In this document: one piece after another, positions 4,402 through 63,912 of the stretch
Layout: every line of letters starts with the position of its first letter
How positions within the stretch are numbered: position 1 is the first letter of the stretch
NCBI RefSeq assembly: GCF_001553625.1
Contig: NZ_CP014230.1
Location: forward strand, 1,364,001-1,428,000
Direction of reading: 5' to 3'
DNA length: 64,000 nt
From: Desulfomicrobium orale DSM 12838
GTDB lineage: Bacteria; Desulfobacterota; Desulfovibrionia; Desulfovibrionales; Desulfomicrobiaceae
Notes under the pieces: model-generated
Told to the model about the DNA's origin: nothing
The model's input: the letters and a program-made list of their open reading frames with translations, nothing else
Databases searched by the model: none
Position numbers and translations under genes: made by a program

Positions 4402-5196
4402 TCATCCCTGAGAAGGCCAGACCCCGCCACCGTGCTGGCGCAGCATTTCGCCCATGATCATGGCTCCGGCCTGGGCCACATTCAGAGAATCCCACCCCGC
4501 GTGCATGGGAATGGACAGTACGGCTTGACAGCGTTTGCCCACATTGGGGCGCATGCCTTTGTCCTCGTTCCCGAGGACGAGAACCGCGGGAAAAGAAAAC
4601 GCCGTACCGAAGAGAGGCCGCGTCTGCGGGTCAAGGCCGGTGCCGTAGACGGAGAATCCGCTGTCGCGGCAGGTATCCAGCGTTCTGGACAGATTGACGA
4701 CCTGGCACAGGGGCAGCCGGTCCAGGGCTCCGGCGGCGGCTTTGGCCGCGGCTTGTCCCAGAAAGGCGGAGCGGTCCCGGGGAAAGAGGAGTCCGCCGCC
4801 GCCCAGGGCGAGTAGAGTGCGGGCCAGAGTCCCCGCGTTGCCGGGGTCCTGGACCTGATCGAGAGCCAGAACAAGCGGCAATGGGCTGCGGGCGGCCTGG
4901 GCGAGAAAGGGTTCTATCTCCATGAATTCTCTGCCCCGGAGGCGGGCGACAACTCCCTGGTGCGCGCCCTGAAACATGCGGTCCAGTTCCCGGCGGGGGA
5001 TTTTCCGGAAGCGGACGCCGTGCTGTCTGCAGGCCTGGATGACTTCTCCCAGGCCGGGAGCGTCCTCGGCCAGAAAAACCGTATCCAGCATGTGCGGCCG
5101 GTCCATGATGCATTCGAGGACGGGTTTGCGGCCGGGAGTAAGGTGCGTGTCCGCTTGGTTCTCGCGTTTTCGGGAAGGCTTCGGAAGAATTTCCAC
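4402..5196 (-). CDS. rlmB: TrmH/SpoU-family RNA 2'-O-methyltransferase (RlmB-like)
   Basis: 264 residues. The N-terminal substrate-binding part (about 20-95) starts LTPGRKPVLECI. The C-terminal SPOUT domain has LALDQVQDPGNAGTLARTLLALGG, LVLGNEDKGMR and SLNVAQAGAMIMGEM, the three knot motifs. It uses S-adenosylmethionine to methylate a ribose 2'-OH in RNA; RlmB acts on 23S G2251, but other SpoU enzymes hit tRNA, so the exact target is inferred. GTG start. It is convergent with fliQ and divergent from the lytic transglycosylase. Confidence 0.85.
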   Translation of the reverse strand: MEILPKPSRKRENQADTHLTPGRKPVLECIMDRPHMLDTVFLAEDAPGLGEVIQACRQHGVRFRKIPRRELDRMFQGAHQGVVARLRGREFMEIEPFLAQAARSPLPLVLALDQVQDPGNAGTLARTLLALGGGGLLFPRDRSAFLGQAAAKAAAGALDRLPLCQVVNLSRTLDTCRDSGFSVYGTGLDPQTRPLFGTAFSFPAVLVLGNEDKGMRPNVGKRCQAVLSIPMHAGWDSLNVAQAGAMIMGEMLRQHGGGVWPSQG

Positions 5197-57294: not shown

Positions 57295-58431
57295 TTATTG
57301 CTCTGGAGCAATACGCACCTTCACACCGGGGCGCACTCTCTGCGCGCCGGAAACGACGACTCTGTCGCCGCTGGACAACCCCTCCCGCACAATCCAGTTG
57401 CCTTCGACGGCTCTGTCCAGAACAACGGGACGAGCGGCAATGGTGTCCTGGGCATCCATCAGAAGCACCTGGGCCTGCCCCCTGGCATCGCGGGTCACGG
57501 CATTCTGGGGTACGAGAATGACCCCATCCAGCGTACCTTCCGTGATCACGGCGCGCAGAAACATGCCCGGCAGGAGATCGCGTCCGGGATTGGGCACTTC
57601 CACACGAATGGTCACTGCCCCGGTGCCGGGATCGACGCTGGCTTCGGCGAGTTTCAGAGTGCCGTTCTGTGGGTAGGGAGTTCCGTCCTCCAGAGTGAGG
57701 CGAACCTGTGCTGCCGCCGCGTTCGCGGACTGTACCTGGCCGCTCTCCAGAGATCTTTTCAGGCGCATGAGTTCCGTGCTGGACTGGGTCAGGTCCACGA
57801 ATACGGGATCGAGCTGCTGCACCACGGCCATGGCTTGCGCCTGATTCGCCGTGACCAGGGCTCCGGGAGTGACGCTGGAGCGTCCGATGCGCCCGGAGAT
57901 GGGTGATGTGACTTTGGTCCGCCGCAGGTCGATGCGGGCCGCGTCCAGTTCCGCCTGAGCCTGGGCCACCTGGGCCTGGGCCAGAGCCAGGGCTGCCTGT
58001 GCGTCGTCGAAGTCCTGCTGGCTGACGGCTTTGGAAGCGACCAGTTCCCGGTAGCGGCTGGCCTTGAGTCGGGACGGTTCGAGGTTGGCCCGCGCCGAAG
58101 CCAGCGCCGCTTTGGACCGCGCAACGGCTACGTCGTATGTGTCGGGGTCTATTTGGTACAGCACTTCACCGGCCTTGACCTCGGTGCCTTCGGTAAAAGC
58201 CCGCTTCTGAATGATGCCGCTGACCTGCGGGCGGATTTCCGCAGTCTGGTAAGCGGAAGCCCTGCCAGGAAGTTCGGTGGTCAGCGTTACTGAAGTGGGC
58301 TTCAGAACGAGTACGTTGACTTCCGGTAAGGCTCCTTGCTCCGCGTTTTGATCCGCGCTGGACGGCCGATCGAATACGAAGTGCACAAGGGTCAGAGCCA
58401 GAACAGGCATGAGCAACAATACTTTTTTCAT
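57295..58431 (-). CDS. RND efflux periplasmic adaptor (MexA/AcrA type)
   Basis: 378 residues. N-terminal signal or anchor (LLLMPVLALTLVHFVF). Lipoyl half-motifs EIRPQVSGIIQKRAFTEGTEVKAGEVLYQIDPDTY and VTSPISGRIGRSSVTPGALVT flank a coiled-coil hairpin of Ala/Gln-rich heptads. It bridges pump and outer-membrane tunnel. No lipobox Cys, so it may be anchored by the helix. 29 bases after tetR. Confidence 0.94.
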   Translation of the reverse strand: MKKVLLLMPVLALTLVHFVFDRPSSADQNAEQGALPEVNVLVLKPTSVTLTTELPGRASAYQTAEIRPQVSGIIQKRAFTEGTEVKAGEVLYQIDPDTYDVAVARSKAALASARANLEPSRLKASRYRELVASKAVSQQDFDDAQAALALAQAQVAQAQAELDAARIDLRRTKVTSPISGRIGRSSVTPGALVTANQAQAMAVVQQLDPVFVDLTQSSTELMRLKRSLESGQVQSANAAAAQVRLTLEDGTPYPQNGTLKLAEASVDPGTGAVTIRVEVPNPGRDLLPGMFLRAVITEGTLDGVILVPQNAVTRDARGQAQVLLMDAQDTIAARPVVLDRAVEGNWIVREGLSSGDRVVVSGAQRVRPGVKVRIAPEQ

Positions 58432-58460: not shown

Positions 58461-59057
58461 TCAGGGCAGAATGCCCCGGACAAAAATTTGCCAGTTGGCC
58501 TTAGATTGGGCCTCGATATCAATCATATTTCCCTGTCGGCAATGCAGAACGGCGACGCTCAGAAATTGTCCAAAAAACTGGGCGAAAATCTGACTGGCGC
58601 CAATATCCGTCCGGATTTCCCCTCCCTCCTGTCCGTGCCGGACAAGGGCTTCCACTTGAAGTTGATGGGCATGGTAGCTCTTCAGAAAACGGTCACGGAG
58701 TAAAGGAAATTCAATCCACAGAGTATCTGACAGAAGAAGGCAGGGCAGAGCGCGGAAGCGCTGGATCAGGCTGATCTGCTGGTCATAGAAATGCCGCAAC
58801 TTGTCCACGGCCGTTCCCGGTGTTTCGTGGGCTGCTTTGAGTCCGGCCGTTTTGATGTCCTCCAGCAAATCCAGAATGCTGGCCAGAATGTTCTCCTTGC
58901 CTCCGGGAAAATGTCTGTACAGCGCGGGAGCGGTCAGTCCTACGGTCTTGGCCAGATTCCTGGCCGTCAGTCCGCCCAGTCCCTGCTCGGAGAGGAGGGT
59001 CAGGGCCGCTTCGGCAATTTGCTCGCGCCGGACGAGAGTGGTCATGCGTTTAGCCAT
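58461..59057 (-). CDS. TetR/AcrR family repressor of the efflux operon
   Basis: 198 residues from ATG 59057 (MAKRMTTLVRREQIAEAAL); the frame is open farther upstream but that part overlaps the presumed promoter. HTH region GGLTARNLAKTVGLTAPALYRHFPGGKENIL at about 30-62. The C-terminal ligand domain is variable. It leads the operon tetR-adaptor-pump-tunnel, so repression is probably autogenous. A palindrome lies just upstream. Confidence 0.9.
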   Translation of the reverse strand: MAKRMTTLVRREQIAEAALTLLSEQGLGGLTARNLAKTVGLTAPALYRHFPGGKENILASILDLLEDIKTAGLKAAHETPGTAVDKLRHFYDQQISLIQRFRALPCLLLSDTLWIEFPLLRDRFLKSYHAHQLQVEALVRHGQEGGEIRTDIGASQIFAQFFGQFLSVAVLHCRQGNMIDIEAQSKANWQIFVRGILP

Positions 59058-59066
59058 GGAGCGCGT

Positions 59067-59082
59067 GTTAACGATTGATAAC
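59067..59082. promoter_or_regulatory. Candidate TetR operator
   Basis: GTTAACGATTGATAAC is an imperfect palindrome (6 of 8 pairs) placed 10 bases before the tetR ATG, downstream of a TTGACG element on the minus strand at about 59090-59095. Such siting would block transcription of the whole operon. Confidence 0.5.
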
Positions 59083-59189
59083 TTGTCCGTCAAGCATCGC
59101 GGAAAGCTTGGGAGGCAATGCTTTTTTGCCTTGTTTTCACCAGAAATGTGGAGCTCTTCGGGAATGTTCGACAGTGGATAAAATTTCTC

Positions 59190-59218
59190 TTGCCGTGGGA
59201 GAAAGATTTCTTTAAATA
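59190..59218 (+). promoter_or_regulatory. Possible rubrerythrin promoter
   Basis: TTGCCG at 59190-59195, 17 bases, TAAATA at 59213-59218. Downstream, AATATT at 59243 and 59259 flank the ribosome site GGAGGAGG. No clear PerR box was found. Confidence 0.4.
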
Positions 59219-59267
59219 TCATTTTTAGGAAAAGTTACTATTAATATTTTGGAGGAGGAATATTCCC

Positions 59268-59762
59268 ATGAGCAAGACCACTGAAAATCTGAAGGCTGCT
59301 TTTGCCGGAGAATCTCAAGCCAACCGTAAATATCTGGCATTCGCCAAAAAAGCGGAAGACGAAGGATTGGGCCAAGTGGCCAAGCTGTTCCGGGCCGCGG
59401 CGGAAGCGGAAACCATTCATGCCCATGCCCATCTGCGGCTGATGAAGGGTGTCGGAGATACGGCCGCCAATCTGAAGGATGCCGAAGCCGGAGAAGTCTA
59501 CGAGTTCAAGTCCATGTACCCGGATATGATCGCCGATGCCCAGGCCGAAGGAGAAAAGGCGGCGGAGCGTTATTTCGTTTTCGCCAACAAGGCCGAGGAA
59601 TGTCATGCCAACCTTTACGCCAAGGCCGCCAAAATGATGGGCGATCTCCCCGAAGTGACCTACCATGTATGCGGCGTCTGCGGACACATCCACGAGGGCG
59701 AGCCCTCTGAAAACTGTCCCATCTGCGGTTCCGCGCCCAAGGTTTACTACGCGGTGGCCTGA
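59268..59762 (+). CDS. rbr: Rubrerythrin
   Basis: 164 residues, the short form. N-terminal four-helix diiron domain: Glu in AGESQANRKY, EXXH in AEAETIHAHAH, and a second EXXH in KAEECHANLYAK. C-terminal rubredoxin-like iron site CGVCG and CPICG. It reduces hydrogen peroxide in anaerobes. GGAGGAGG lies before the ATG; monocistronic, with its own terminator. Confidence 0.95.
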   Translation: MSKTTENLKAAFAGESQANRKYLAFAKKAEDEGLGQVAKLFRAAAEAETIHAHAHLRLMKGVGDTAANLKDAEAGEVYEFKSMYPDMIADAQAEGEKAAERYFVFANKAEECHANLYAKAAKMMGDLPEVTYHVCGVCGHIHEGEPSENCPICGSAPKVYYAVA

Positions 59763-59948: not shown

Positions 59949-59977
59949 TTGACGCCTGATATCAATTTGCCTATGCG
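59949..59977 (+). promoter_or_regulatory. Possible promoter of the ffh operon
   Basis: TTGACG at 59949-59954, 17 bases, TATGCG at 59972-59977, 33 bases before the ffh ATG. The stretch 59822-59948 shows no gene. Confidence 0.45.
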
Positions 59978-60009
59978 TGACTTCTTTTATTTTGCACAGG
60001 ACTCCGCAT

Positions 60010-61455
<1,446 letters not shown>

Positions 61456-61511: not shown

Positions 61512-61757
61512 ATGGCTTTGAAACTCAGACTGACCCGCATGGGCTCCAAGAAGAAACCGTTCTACCGTATCGTGGCCGTGAACAGCGAGTCCCGCCGCGA
61601 CGGCCGGGCTCTCGATTATGTCGGGTACTACAACCCCATGACCAAGCCCGCCGACATCAAGATCGATCAGGAAAAGATCAGGATCTGGATGGAGCGGGGC
61701 GCGCACCCCTCGGATACCGTCCGTTCCCTGCTCAAGCAGGCAGGCTTTGCCGGTTAG
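61512..61757 (+). CDS. rpsP: 30S ribosomal protein S16
   Basis: 81 residues. [41 protein letters not shown] is the family hallmark, and the C-terminus [22 protein letters not shown] is complete. CAGGGAGAA lies before the ATG. In the ffh-trmD operon. Confidence 0.97.
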
Positions 61758-61803: not shown

Positions 61804-62037
61804 ATGCCCAAGGAGCTGATTGAATACATCGCCAGATCCCTGGTGGACGACCCGGATGAGGTGCTTGTCACCGAGACTCCCGGCGAACAGGCTGCTGTGA
61901 TCGAACTCAAGGTCGCCAAGGAGGACCTGGGCAAGGTCATCGGCAAGCAGGGCCGTACGGCCAGGGCCATGCGTACCTTGCTGAGTGCGGCCAGGGCCGG
62001 AGCAGGGAAGCGCTTGGTGCTGGAGATTCTGGAATAG
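61804..62037 (+). CDS. khpA: KH-domain RNA-binding protein KhpA
   Basis: 77 residues. One KH domain with the [22 protein letters not shown] loop. N-terminal [18 protein letters not shown] is typical of KhpA/YlqC. Found between rpsP and rimM in many bacteria; binds small or ribosomal RNAs. Confidence 0.93.
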
Positions 62038-62038
62038 C

Positions 62039-62593
62039 ATGTCCGGTCCGCGCCGGGAGCCGGCCCGGCTGGTGCAGGTGGGCCGGGTGCTCAAGCCTCA
62101 CGGTCTCAGGGGGGAGCTTTGCGTAGAAATCCACGCGGGCTCCCCGTTCCTCTTTGAGGGGATTTCACGCGTCTATCTGGAGCTTCCCGGCAAGAAAGCC
62201 AGACCATGTGTTCTTGAGGCCTGGAGGCCGCACCGGGAACGCGTGTTGATACTGGTGGACCGCTGTCAGGGCAGGGATCAGGCCGAAACGTTGCGAGGGG
62301 CTCTGGTCCTGGTGCGCGAGCGTGATCTGCCCGACACGGATGAAGACGGACTTTGTCCCGAGGATATTCTGGGACTGCCGGTGGTCCGCCCCGACGGCTG
62401 CCGGATAGGCGTACTGGAAGACATGCGGGACATGGCGGGGCAGGAAATCTGGTTCGTACGCGACGAAGCAGGAAATGAAATCCTGCTGCCCGCAGTGGAG
62501 GAGATCGTGGTGGAAATCGATCTGGGGCAGGGGCTGATCAGGGTGGACCCGCCCGACGGTCTGGTCGAGCTGTATCAGAATCAGAACGGATAG
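62039..62593 (+). CDS. rimM: 16S rRNA processing protein RimM
   Basis: 184 residues from ATG 62039, one base after the khpA stop. N-terminal LVQVGRVLKPHGLRGELCVE and PRC-barrel C-terminus with EDILGLPVV and GNEILLPAVEEIVVEIDL. It matures the 30S head domain near S19. Confidence 0.93.
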   Translation: MSGPRREPARLVQVGRVLKPHGLRGELCVEIHAGSPFLFEGISRVYLELPGKKARPCVLEAWRPHRERVLILVDRCQGRDQAETLRGALVLVRERDLPDTDEDGLCPEDILGLPVVRPDGCRIGVLEDMRDMAGQEIWFVRDEAGNEILLPAVEEIVVEIDLGQGLIRVDPPDGLVELYQNQNG

Positions 62594-62637: not shown

Positions 62638-63912
62638 ATGCGGTTTTCCATCATCAGTATTTTCCCGGAATTTTTCGAGTCCCCCTTATCCTGCGGTCTG
62701 TTGTCCAAAGCCGTGGACAAGGGGCTGATCAGCTTTCAGTTCATCAATCCGCGTCATTATTCCACGGACAAGCACCATAATGTGGATGACCGCCCTTACG
62801 GCGGCGGACCGGGAATGGTTATGGCCGTGGAGCCGCTGCGCCGGGCTCTGGAAACGCTGCCCCCGTCGGTGCGCATCCTCATGCTGAATCCCAAGGGCCG
62901 TCCTCTGACCCAGAAACTGGCCAGGGAACTGGCTGCGGAAGAGGAACTGGCGCTTTTATGCGGGCGCTACGAAGGTGTGGACGCCCGGCTGGAGGAACTG
63001 TGCGCCGTGGAGCCCGTTTCCGTGGGGGATTTCGTCCTGAACGGAGGAGAAAGCGGCGCTCTGTGTCTGATAGAGGCCGTGAGTCGTCTGGTGCCGGACT
63101 TCATGGGCCGGGACGAAAGCGCGGACGAGGAGAGCTTCAGCTCCGGACTGCTGGAATACCCGCACTACACCAGACCCGAAGAATACGAGGGCTTGGCTGT
63201 GCCCGAAGTGCTGTCTTCGGGACACCATGGGCGGATCGCGGTCTGGCGGCGGGAGAAAAGCCTGGAAGCCACGCTGGCCCTGCGGCCGGACATGCTGGAC
63301 ACCGCACTTCTGACCGACCAGGATATCCGCCATCTGCGGAGCATCGAGCGTGTCCGCCCGGGGCGGAATCTGTATGTGGCTCTGGTGCACTATCCGGTGG
63401 AGAACAAGCGGGGAGAGACCATTACAACCTCTTTGACAAATCTGGACCTCCACGATATTGCGCGCGTTTCGCGTACCTATGGACTTGGCGGCTACTATCT
63501 GTGTACGCCCCTTGCCGATCAGCGGGAAATGGCCCGGACATTGATCGGCCATTGGAAGGACGGCTTCGGAGCCACCGCCAATCCCGACCGGAGTGACGCG
63601 CTGGGCCGGGTGCGGGTGACCGGCCTTCTGGAGGAAGCTATCGCGGACATCGAGTCCCGGACAGGACTGCGGCCCAAGGTGGTGGTCACCAGCGCCAAGG
63701 CCGGAGATATGACCTGCAGCCAGGTCGTGGAATGGCTCGAAGCGTTTCCGGTGCTTTTGGTGCTGGGCACGGGCCATGGGCTGGGGCGGGAAGTGCTGGC
63801 CGCCGCTGACGGGGCCTTGCGGGCCATACGCTTTCTGGATGGGTATAATCATCTTTCCGTCCGCTCGGCGGCTTCCATCATGGTGGACCGGCTTCTTGGC
63901 GACACGGGCTGA
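62638..63912 (+). CDS. trmD: tRNA (guanine-N1)-methyltransferase TrmD fused to a second SAM-dependent RNA methyltransferase domain
   Basis: 424 residues versus about 245 for TrmD. Residues 1-238 are TrmD: SIFPEFFESPLS, YGGGPGMVM, NPKGRPLTQKLARELA, LCGRYEGVDAR, VGDFVLNGGESGAL, the trefoil-knot motifs that methylate G37 of tRNA. From about residue 244 a second domain starts (NLYVALVHYPVENKRGETITTSLTNLDLHDIARVSRTYGLGGYYLCTP), matching the PF09936 family, which is a separate gene in other phyla. The C-terminal target is unknown. GGTTTTCC-start is normal; no internal stop. Confidence 0.93.
   Translation: MRFSIISIFPEFFESPLSCGLLSKAVDKGLISFQFINPRHYSTDKHHNVDDRPYGGGPGMVMAVEPLRRALETLPPSVRILMLNPKGRPLTQKLARELAAEEELALLCGRYEGVDARLEELCAVEPVSVGDFVLNGGESGALCLIEAVSRLVPDFMGRDESADEESFSSGLLEYPHYTRPEEYEGLAVPEVLSSGHHGRIAVWRREKSLEATLALRPDMLDTALLTDQDIRHLRSIERVRPGRNLYVALVHYPVENKRGETITTSLTNLDLHDIARVSRTYGLGGYYLCTPLADQREMARTLIGHWKDGFGATANPDRSDALGRVRVTGLLEEAIADIESRTGLRPKVVVTSAKAGDMTCSQVVEWLEAFPVLLVLGTGHGLGREVLAAADGALRAIRFLDGYNHLSVRSAASIMVDRLLGDTG

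Follow-up and report, generated by a model that had tools for sequence, protein, structure and literature searches.

A TrmD-Tm1570 fusion in Desulfomicrobium orale and the question of its second methylation target

In Desulfomicrobium orale DSM 12838, the reading frame of trmD continues into a second RNA methyltransferase domain. This raises the question of whether a single gene encodes two enzymes in this bacterium and, if so, what the second half of the protein does. The window analysed here is the whole stretch of 64,000 nucleotides in which this gene was noticed. The original prediction, made from the sequence of the window, assigned residues 1-238 to ordinary TrmD and the remainder of the frame to a domain of the PF09936 type.

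Our results indicate that the protein is very likely (rough probability 0.88) an ordinary representative of the already described TrmD-Tm1570 family, in which the TrmD half forms m1G37 and the Tm1570 half uses its own SAM, most likely for ribose 2'-O-methylation of RNA. We favour this reading because both Pfam domains, each scoring far above its cut-off, lie in one frame, because the protein matches the crystal structure 8b1n over its full length, and because exactly this fusion has been described before. The architecture is not new. It has been in the literature since 2007, it has been crystallised and it is fixed in a whole order, and its presence here is therefore no surprise.

The fusion gene and its two domains

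The gene lies in the run ffh - rpsP - KH - rimM - trmD, which comprises the following features:

59977..61455, plus strand: ffh (signal recognition particle protein); TIGR00959, 621 bits (cut-off 473)
61512..61757, plus strand: rpsP (ribosomal protein S16); TIGR00002, 110 bits (cut-off 45.3)
61804..62037, plus strand: KH-domain RNA-binding protein, between rpsP and rimM; NF001748, 100.5 bits, just below the cut-off of 106
61985..62593, plus strand: rimM, upstream neighbour in the operon-like run; TIGR02273, 95.5 bits (cut-off 66.2); the start was called mechanically, and the actual one probably lies inside the frame
62638..63912, plus strand: trmD-Tm1570 fusion gene, 424 aa; ORF list, DNA, Pfam and full-length PDB match
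62638..63351, plus strand: TrmD domain, residues 1-238 (tRNA m1G37 methyltransferase); NF000648, TIGR00088 and aligned catalytic residues
63352..63366, plus strand: short inter-domain linker, residues 239-243, inside the weakly conserved stretch 226-243
63367..63909, plus strand: Tm1570 domain (PF09936/COG4752 SPOUT methyltransferase), residues 244-424; PF09936, AlphaFold model and Foldseek

Both the ORF list and a reading of the DNA gave one frame of 424 codons without any stop between the domains. A profile search of the source genome found PF09936 in a single copy, with the fusion frame unbroken in one contig. The N-terminal half matches PF01746 at residues 23-217 (197 bits) and exceeds the cut-offs of two TrmD equivalog models (NF000648, 296 bits against 220; TIGR00088, 269 bits against 195), which confirms it as TrmD. 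PF09936 is matched at residues 244-421 over the full profile (1-182 of 182) with 227 bits, against a cut-off of 22.6. The protein thus has TrmD followed by Tm1570 in one chain, the arrangement that defines the TrmD-Tm1570 (PF01746-PF09936) family. Majority-residue conservation is lower in the stretch 226-243 (0.45) than in TrmD (0.66) and Tm1570 (0.62). Inspection of the DNA by eye revealed no internal start for the Tm1570 half: an in-frame ATG is absent around residues 226-250, and the domain is not preceded by a clear ribosome-binding site.

Reading by eye further suggested a rubrerythrin-like protein just upstream of ffh (59268-59762, plus strand), preceded by a TetR-like regulator (58461-59222, minus strand) and an efflux-pump adaptor-like frame (57295-58431, minus strand). 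Directly beyond the window end, the DNA appears to continue with an rplS-like frame and then rnhB-, yraN- and rsmI-like frames. Counterparts of the rplS-, rnhB- and yraN-like frames are also found in loci L008 and L020. A scan for promoters and terminators performed at chance level.

In the TrmD half, E112, R150 and E165 align with the catalytic residues E116, R154 and D169 of Haemophilus influenzae TrmD. E112 and R150 are invariant in 27 fusions, and the SG-H motif (SGHH in H. influenzae) is kept. The position of Asp169 is taken by Glu165 here and by Glu in 24 of the 27 fusions, a conservative change that is shared with some unfused relatives and with the active fusion of Calditerrivibrio nitroreducens.

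The Tm1570 half retains R276, GTGHGL (377-382) and NHLSVR (404-409), which are invariant or almost so among the 27 fusions; the loss of SAM-binding residues that would have told against the original prediction is not seen. In all 27 fusions R276, G377, T378, G381, H405, V408 and R409 are unchanged, and the corresponding positions do not vary among 42 Tm1570 domains, which come from fused as well as separate genes. The arginine of COG4752 occupies the position of the catalytic arginine of 2'-O-methylating SPOUT enzymes (PMC1829167). When we tested whether the second domain has lost its cofactor site or is no longer under purifying selection, we saw neither.

In a sequence search against the PDB, the best full-length match was 8b1n (E 2.9e-110, residues 2-419), and the Tm1570 domain alone matched 3dcm, Thermotoga maritima TM_1570, at E 4.2e-47. 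With the AlphaFold model of this domain (pLDDT 93.2), Foldseek ranked 3dcm (TM-score 0.96), 8b1n and 8ri0 on top, all of them SAM complexes, followed at far lower scores by TrmJ and other SPOUT 2'-O enzymes. The full-length profile match and the resemblance of the model to 3dcm bear out the identification of the second domain as a PF09936 domain of the SPOUT class. The predicted model of the full-length protein (pLDDT 85.6, pTM 0.70) also found 8b1n as its best Foldseek match (E 2e-47). Its rmsd to 8b1n is as high as 8.4, and hence the relative placement of the domains in this single-chain model is not trustworthy. The published homologue from C. nitroreducens is a homodimer in an open arrangement with a double trefoil knot (PMC11187310). 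The original prediction of two SPOUT-like active sites in one dimer is right in that the second domain is truly SPOUT, while the number of sites needs refinement, as the published dimer is described with a SAM site in each knot, four in all (PMC11187310).

This doubly knotted TrmD-Tm1570 protein of C. nitroreducens (UniProt E4THH1), studied in 2024 with the structures 8b1n, 8ri0 and 8byh (PMC11187310), is among the closest known systems, together with the D. vulgaris, L. intracellularis and T. maritima proteins described below. It shares with our protein the domain order and boundaries, the Glu at the position of Asp169 and the Tm1570 motifs. In contrast, sequence identity is ~40%, and the organism belongs to another phylum (Deferribacterota, according to the literature). 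The same study lists 66 TrmD-Tm1570 proteins, mentions Desulfovibrio vulgaris and O. alaskensis where it treats composite knots, and describes gene arrangements that range from separate through overlapping to fused (PMC11187310). The fusion had already been reported in 2007 for DVU0836 of D. vulgaris, for LI0220 of Lawsonia intracellularis and for one deltaproteobacterium (PMC1829167). DVU0836 and LI0220 have the same architecture as our protein, in a comparison based on their published description. T. maritima TM_1570 resembles our C-terminal domain but is encoded by a separate gene, which overlaps trmD by 7 nt (PMC11187310).

Distribution and origin of the fusion

PF09936 was present in each of the 41 genomes that represent the genus, family and order of D. 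orale in our sample. Every member of the order that we inspected, each from an independent assembly, has the fusion or has the gene cut by a contig end. Short frames in three draft genomes of the genus (G004, G006, G014) at first resembled unfused copies. They were rejected as such, as they lie at contig ends and still contain the C-terminus of TrmD.

The survey across Desulfobacterota that the original prediction called for was run on a sample of 394 genomes. The fusion is fixed in the order (19/19 members without a stop) and in one further family, f31 (14/14), and is otherwise scattered; one more genome (G207) has it in stop-free form. In 23 further genomes the two frames share a register but are interrupted by one to three stops; many genomes give two separate matches, and in others TrmD occurs alone. 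Inspection of 19 unfused loci, selected for having the frames in register (L059-L073, L078-L081), showed exactly one stop between trmD and Tm1570 in 14 of them, and therefore the loss of a single stop would be enough for a fusion. The same observation might suggest that a stop was lost from the D. orale frame through a mistake in assembly or sequencing. We consider this explanation refuted, and its probability negligible, since all members of the order that we inspected share the fusion in independent assemblies. The fusion is thus real, and neither chance nor a sequencing artefact: the 424-codon frame is unbroken, it recurs in the assembled genome, relatives agree, and the stop between the domains that might have been feared is absent.

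We examined 80 PF09936 loci from GTDB genomes. Of these, 37 were fused and 40 had the gene directly downstream of trmD, in agreement with the original prediction that in some phyla the domain follows trmD as a gene of its own. Together these are 77 of the 80 loci, which were chosen as best-scoring relatives, so that these shares do not describe bacteria at large. The other three had no TrmD in the examined piece, in one case owing to a contig end. Two loci, from metagenome-assembled genomes of Clostridia (L123) and Desulfurobacteriaceae (L132), have PF09936 without TrmD in the 2.5 kb upstream and are useful as natural cases in which the two functions are apart.

A tree built by a quick method from the two domains combined (98 rows) placed the fusions of the window's order in one clade (SH-aLRT 100) and those of family f31 in another (98). 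The window protein grouped with fusions of Desulfovibrionaceae and allied families; the Mucispirillum fusions, which like that of C. nitroreducens come from Deferribacterota, did not join the fusions of its order. The distribution of fused and separate states requires at least 6 changes, of which well-supported branches force only 2. Judged from these sequences, the fusion likely arose repeatedly, with an uncertain number of independent events. Two adjacent genes, trmD first and Tm1570 second, would probably have been joined when the intervening stop or frame break disappeared, and probably more than once. Neighbouring genes that were apparently joined more than once point to a functional partnership.

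Function of the two halves

The N-terminal half would dimerise in the manner of TrmD and methylate N1 of G37 in tRNA. Formation of m1G37 in tRNA was demonstrated for the homologous fusion of C. nitroreducens, whose dimer is active on tRNA through TrmD, with the function of Tm1570 left open (PMC11187310); by analogy with the family, the window protein is expected to have this activity as well. The C-terminal half would pair with its counterpart and bind its own SAM in the second trefoil knot. It would then transfer the methyl group, most likely to the ribose 2'-OH of RNA and probably of tRNA, at a position that TrmJ, TrmL, TrmH and RlmB do not modify. Our best guess that Tm1570 is a 2'-O-ribose methyltransferase of RNA draws on its fold, on the catalytic-arginine argument and on a weak similarity to PF00588 (14 of 42 members, best E 1.5e-5).

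In the literature that we searched, we found no demonstrated methyltransferase activity for any Tm1570 domain and no Tm1570 target. The question of the target concerns a SPOUT family that occurs across several phyla without a known product. Lineages with a separate Tm1570 gene, or without Tm1570, make this question testable without touching the essential TrmD.

An alternative explanation might be that the Tm1570 half no longer methylates and serves as a docking or stabilising extension, which helps TrmD to hold tRNA or keeps the dimer together. In the one published assay, the TrmD half of the C. nitroreducens protein alone retained 86% of the activity, while isolated Tm1570 was near background on tRNA-Leu(CAG), so that activity was governed by TrmD, and the authors themselves suggested a role in binding or stability (PMC11187310). 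Nevertheless, we regard this explanation as unlikely, because a mere tether would need neither invariant sites, nor SAM binding, nor a gene of its own. In contrast, the cofactor-loop and catalytic-arginine residues are invariant in separate and fused forms alike, 3dcm and 8ri0 bind SAM, and half of the loci encode Tm1570 separately. Less probable still is that Tm1570 replaces a missing tRNA 2'-O-methyltransferase, either TrmJ (position 32) or TrmL (position 34). TrmJ is indeed the nearest solved fold after Tm1570 itself (Foldseek; PMC11187310). Yet the source genome encodes four enzymes of the SpoU type, which match RlmB, TrmH, TrmL and TrmJ best, all slightly below curated cut-offs and named by best match. 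Moreover, full-length TrmJ-like matches (>130 bits) were equally common in genomes with PF09936 (21/23) and without it (20/22), and we rejected Tm1570 as a stand-in for TrmJ. Since TrmJ occurs independently of PF09936, and RlmB-, TrmH- and TrmL-like genes are present, the target of Tm1570 is likely another site.

Within the preferred reading of two methyltransferases in one chain, a more specific proposal is that Tm1570 actively methylates the ribose 2'-O at a tRNA site near the anticodon, unserved by the bacterial enzymes described so far, and that the fusion couples this mark to m1G37 on the same tRNA. We put this forward tentatively, as a possibility that may well prove wrong. The broader suggestion of the original prediction, that the two methylations fall on one RNA or on neighbouring ones, is plausible in view of the fusion and the gene neighbourhood. 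The association of PF09936 with trmD is strong, but it would also fit shared expression only, and the published assay on tRNA-Leu(CAG) put isolated Tm1570 near background.

The window protein itself gave no match to TIGR00050 (TrmJ) at E 0.01 in NCBIfam and none to PF00588 at E 1 in Pfam. A full-length TrmJ-like match was absent from two genomes with PF09936 (G050, G061) and from two without it (G064, G099). The window contains a second RNA methyltransferase gene at 4453-4875 on the minus strand, a SpoU-family protein with RlmB as its best family (147 bits, below the cut-off of 160). In locus L021, a fliP-like frame lies near the RlmB-like gene.
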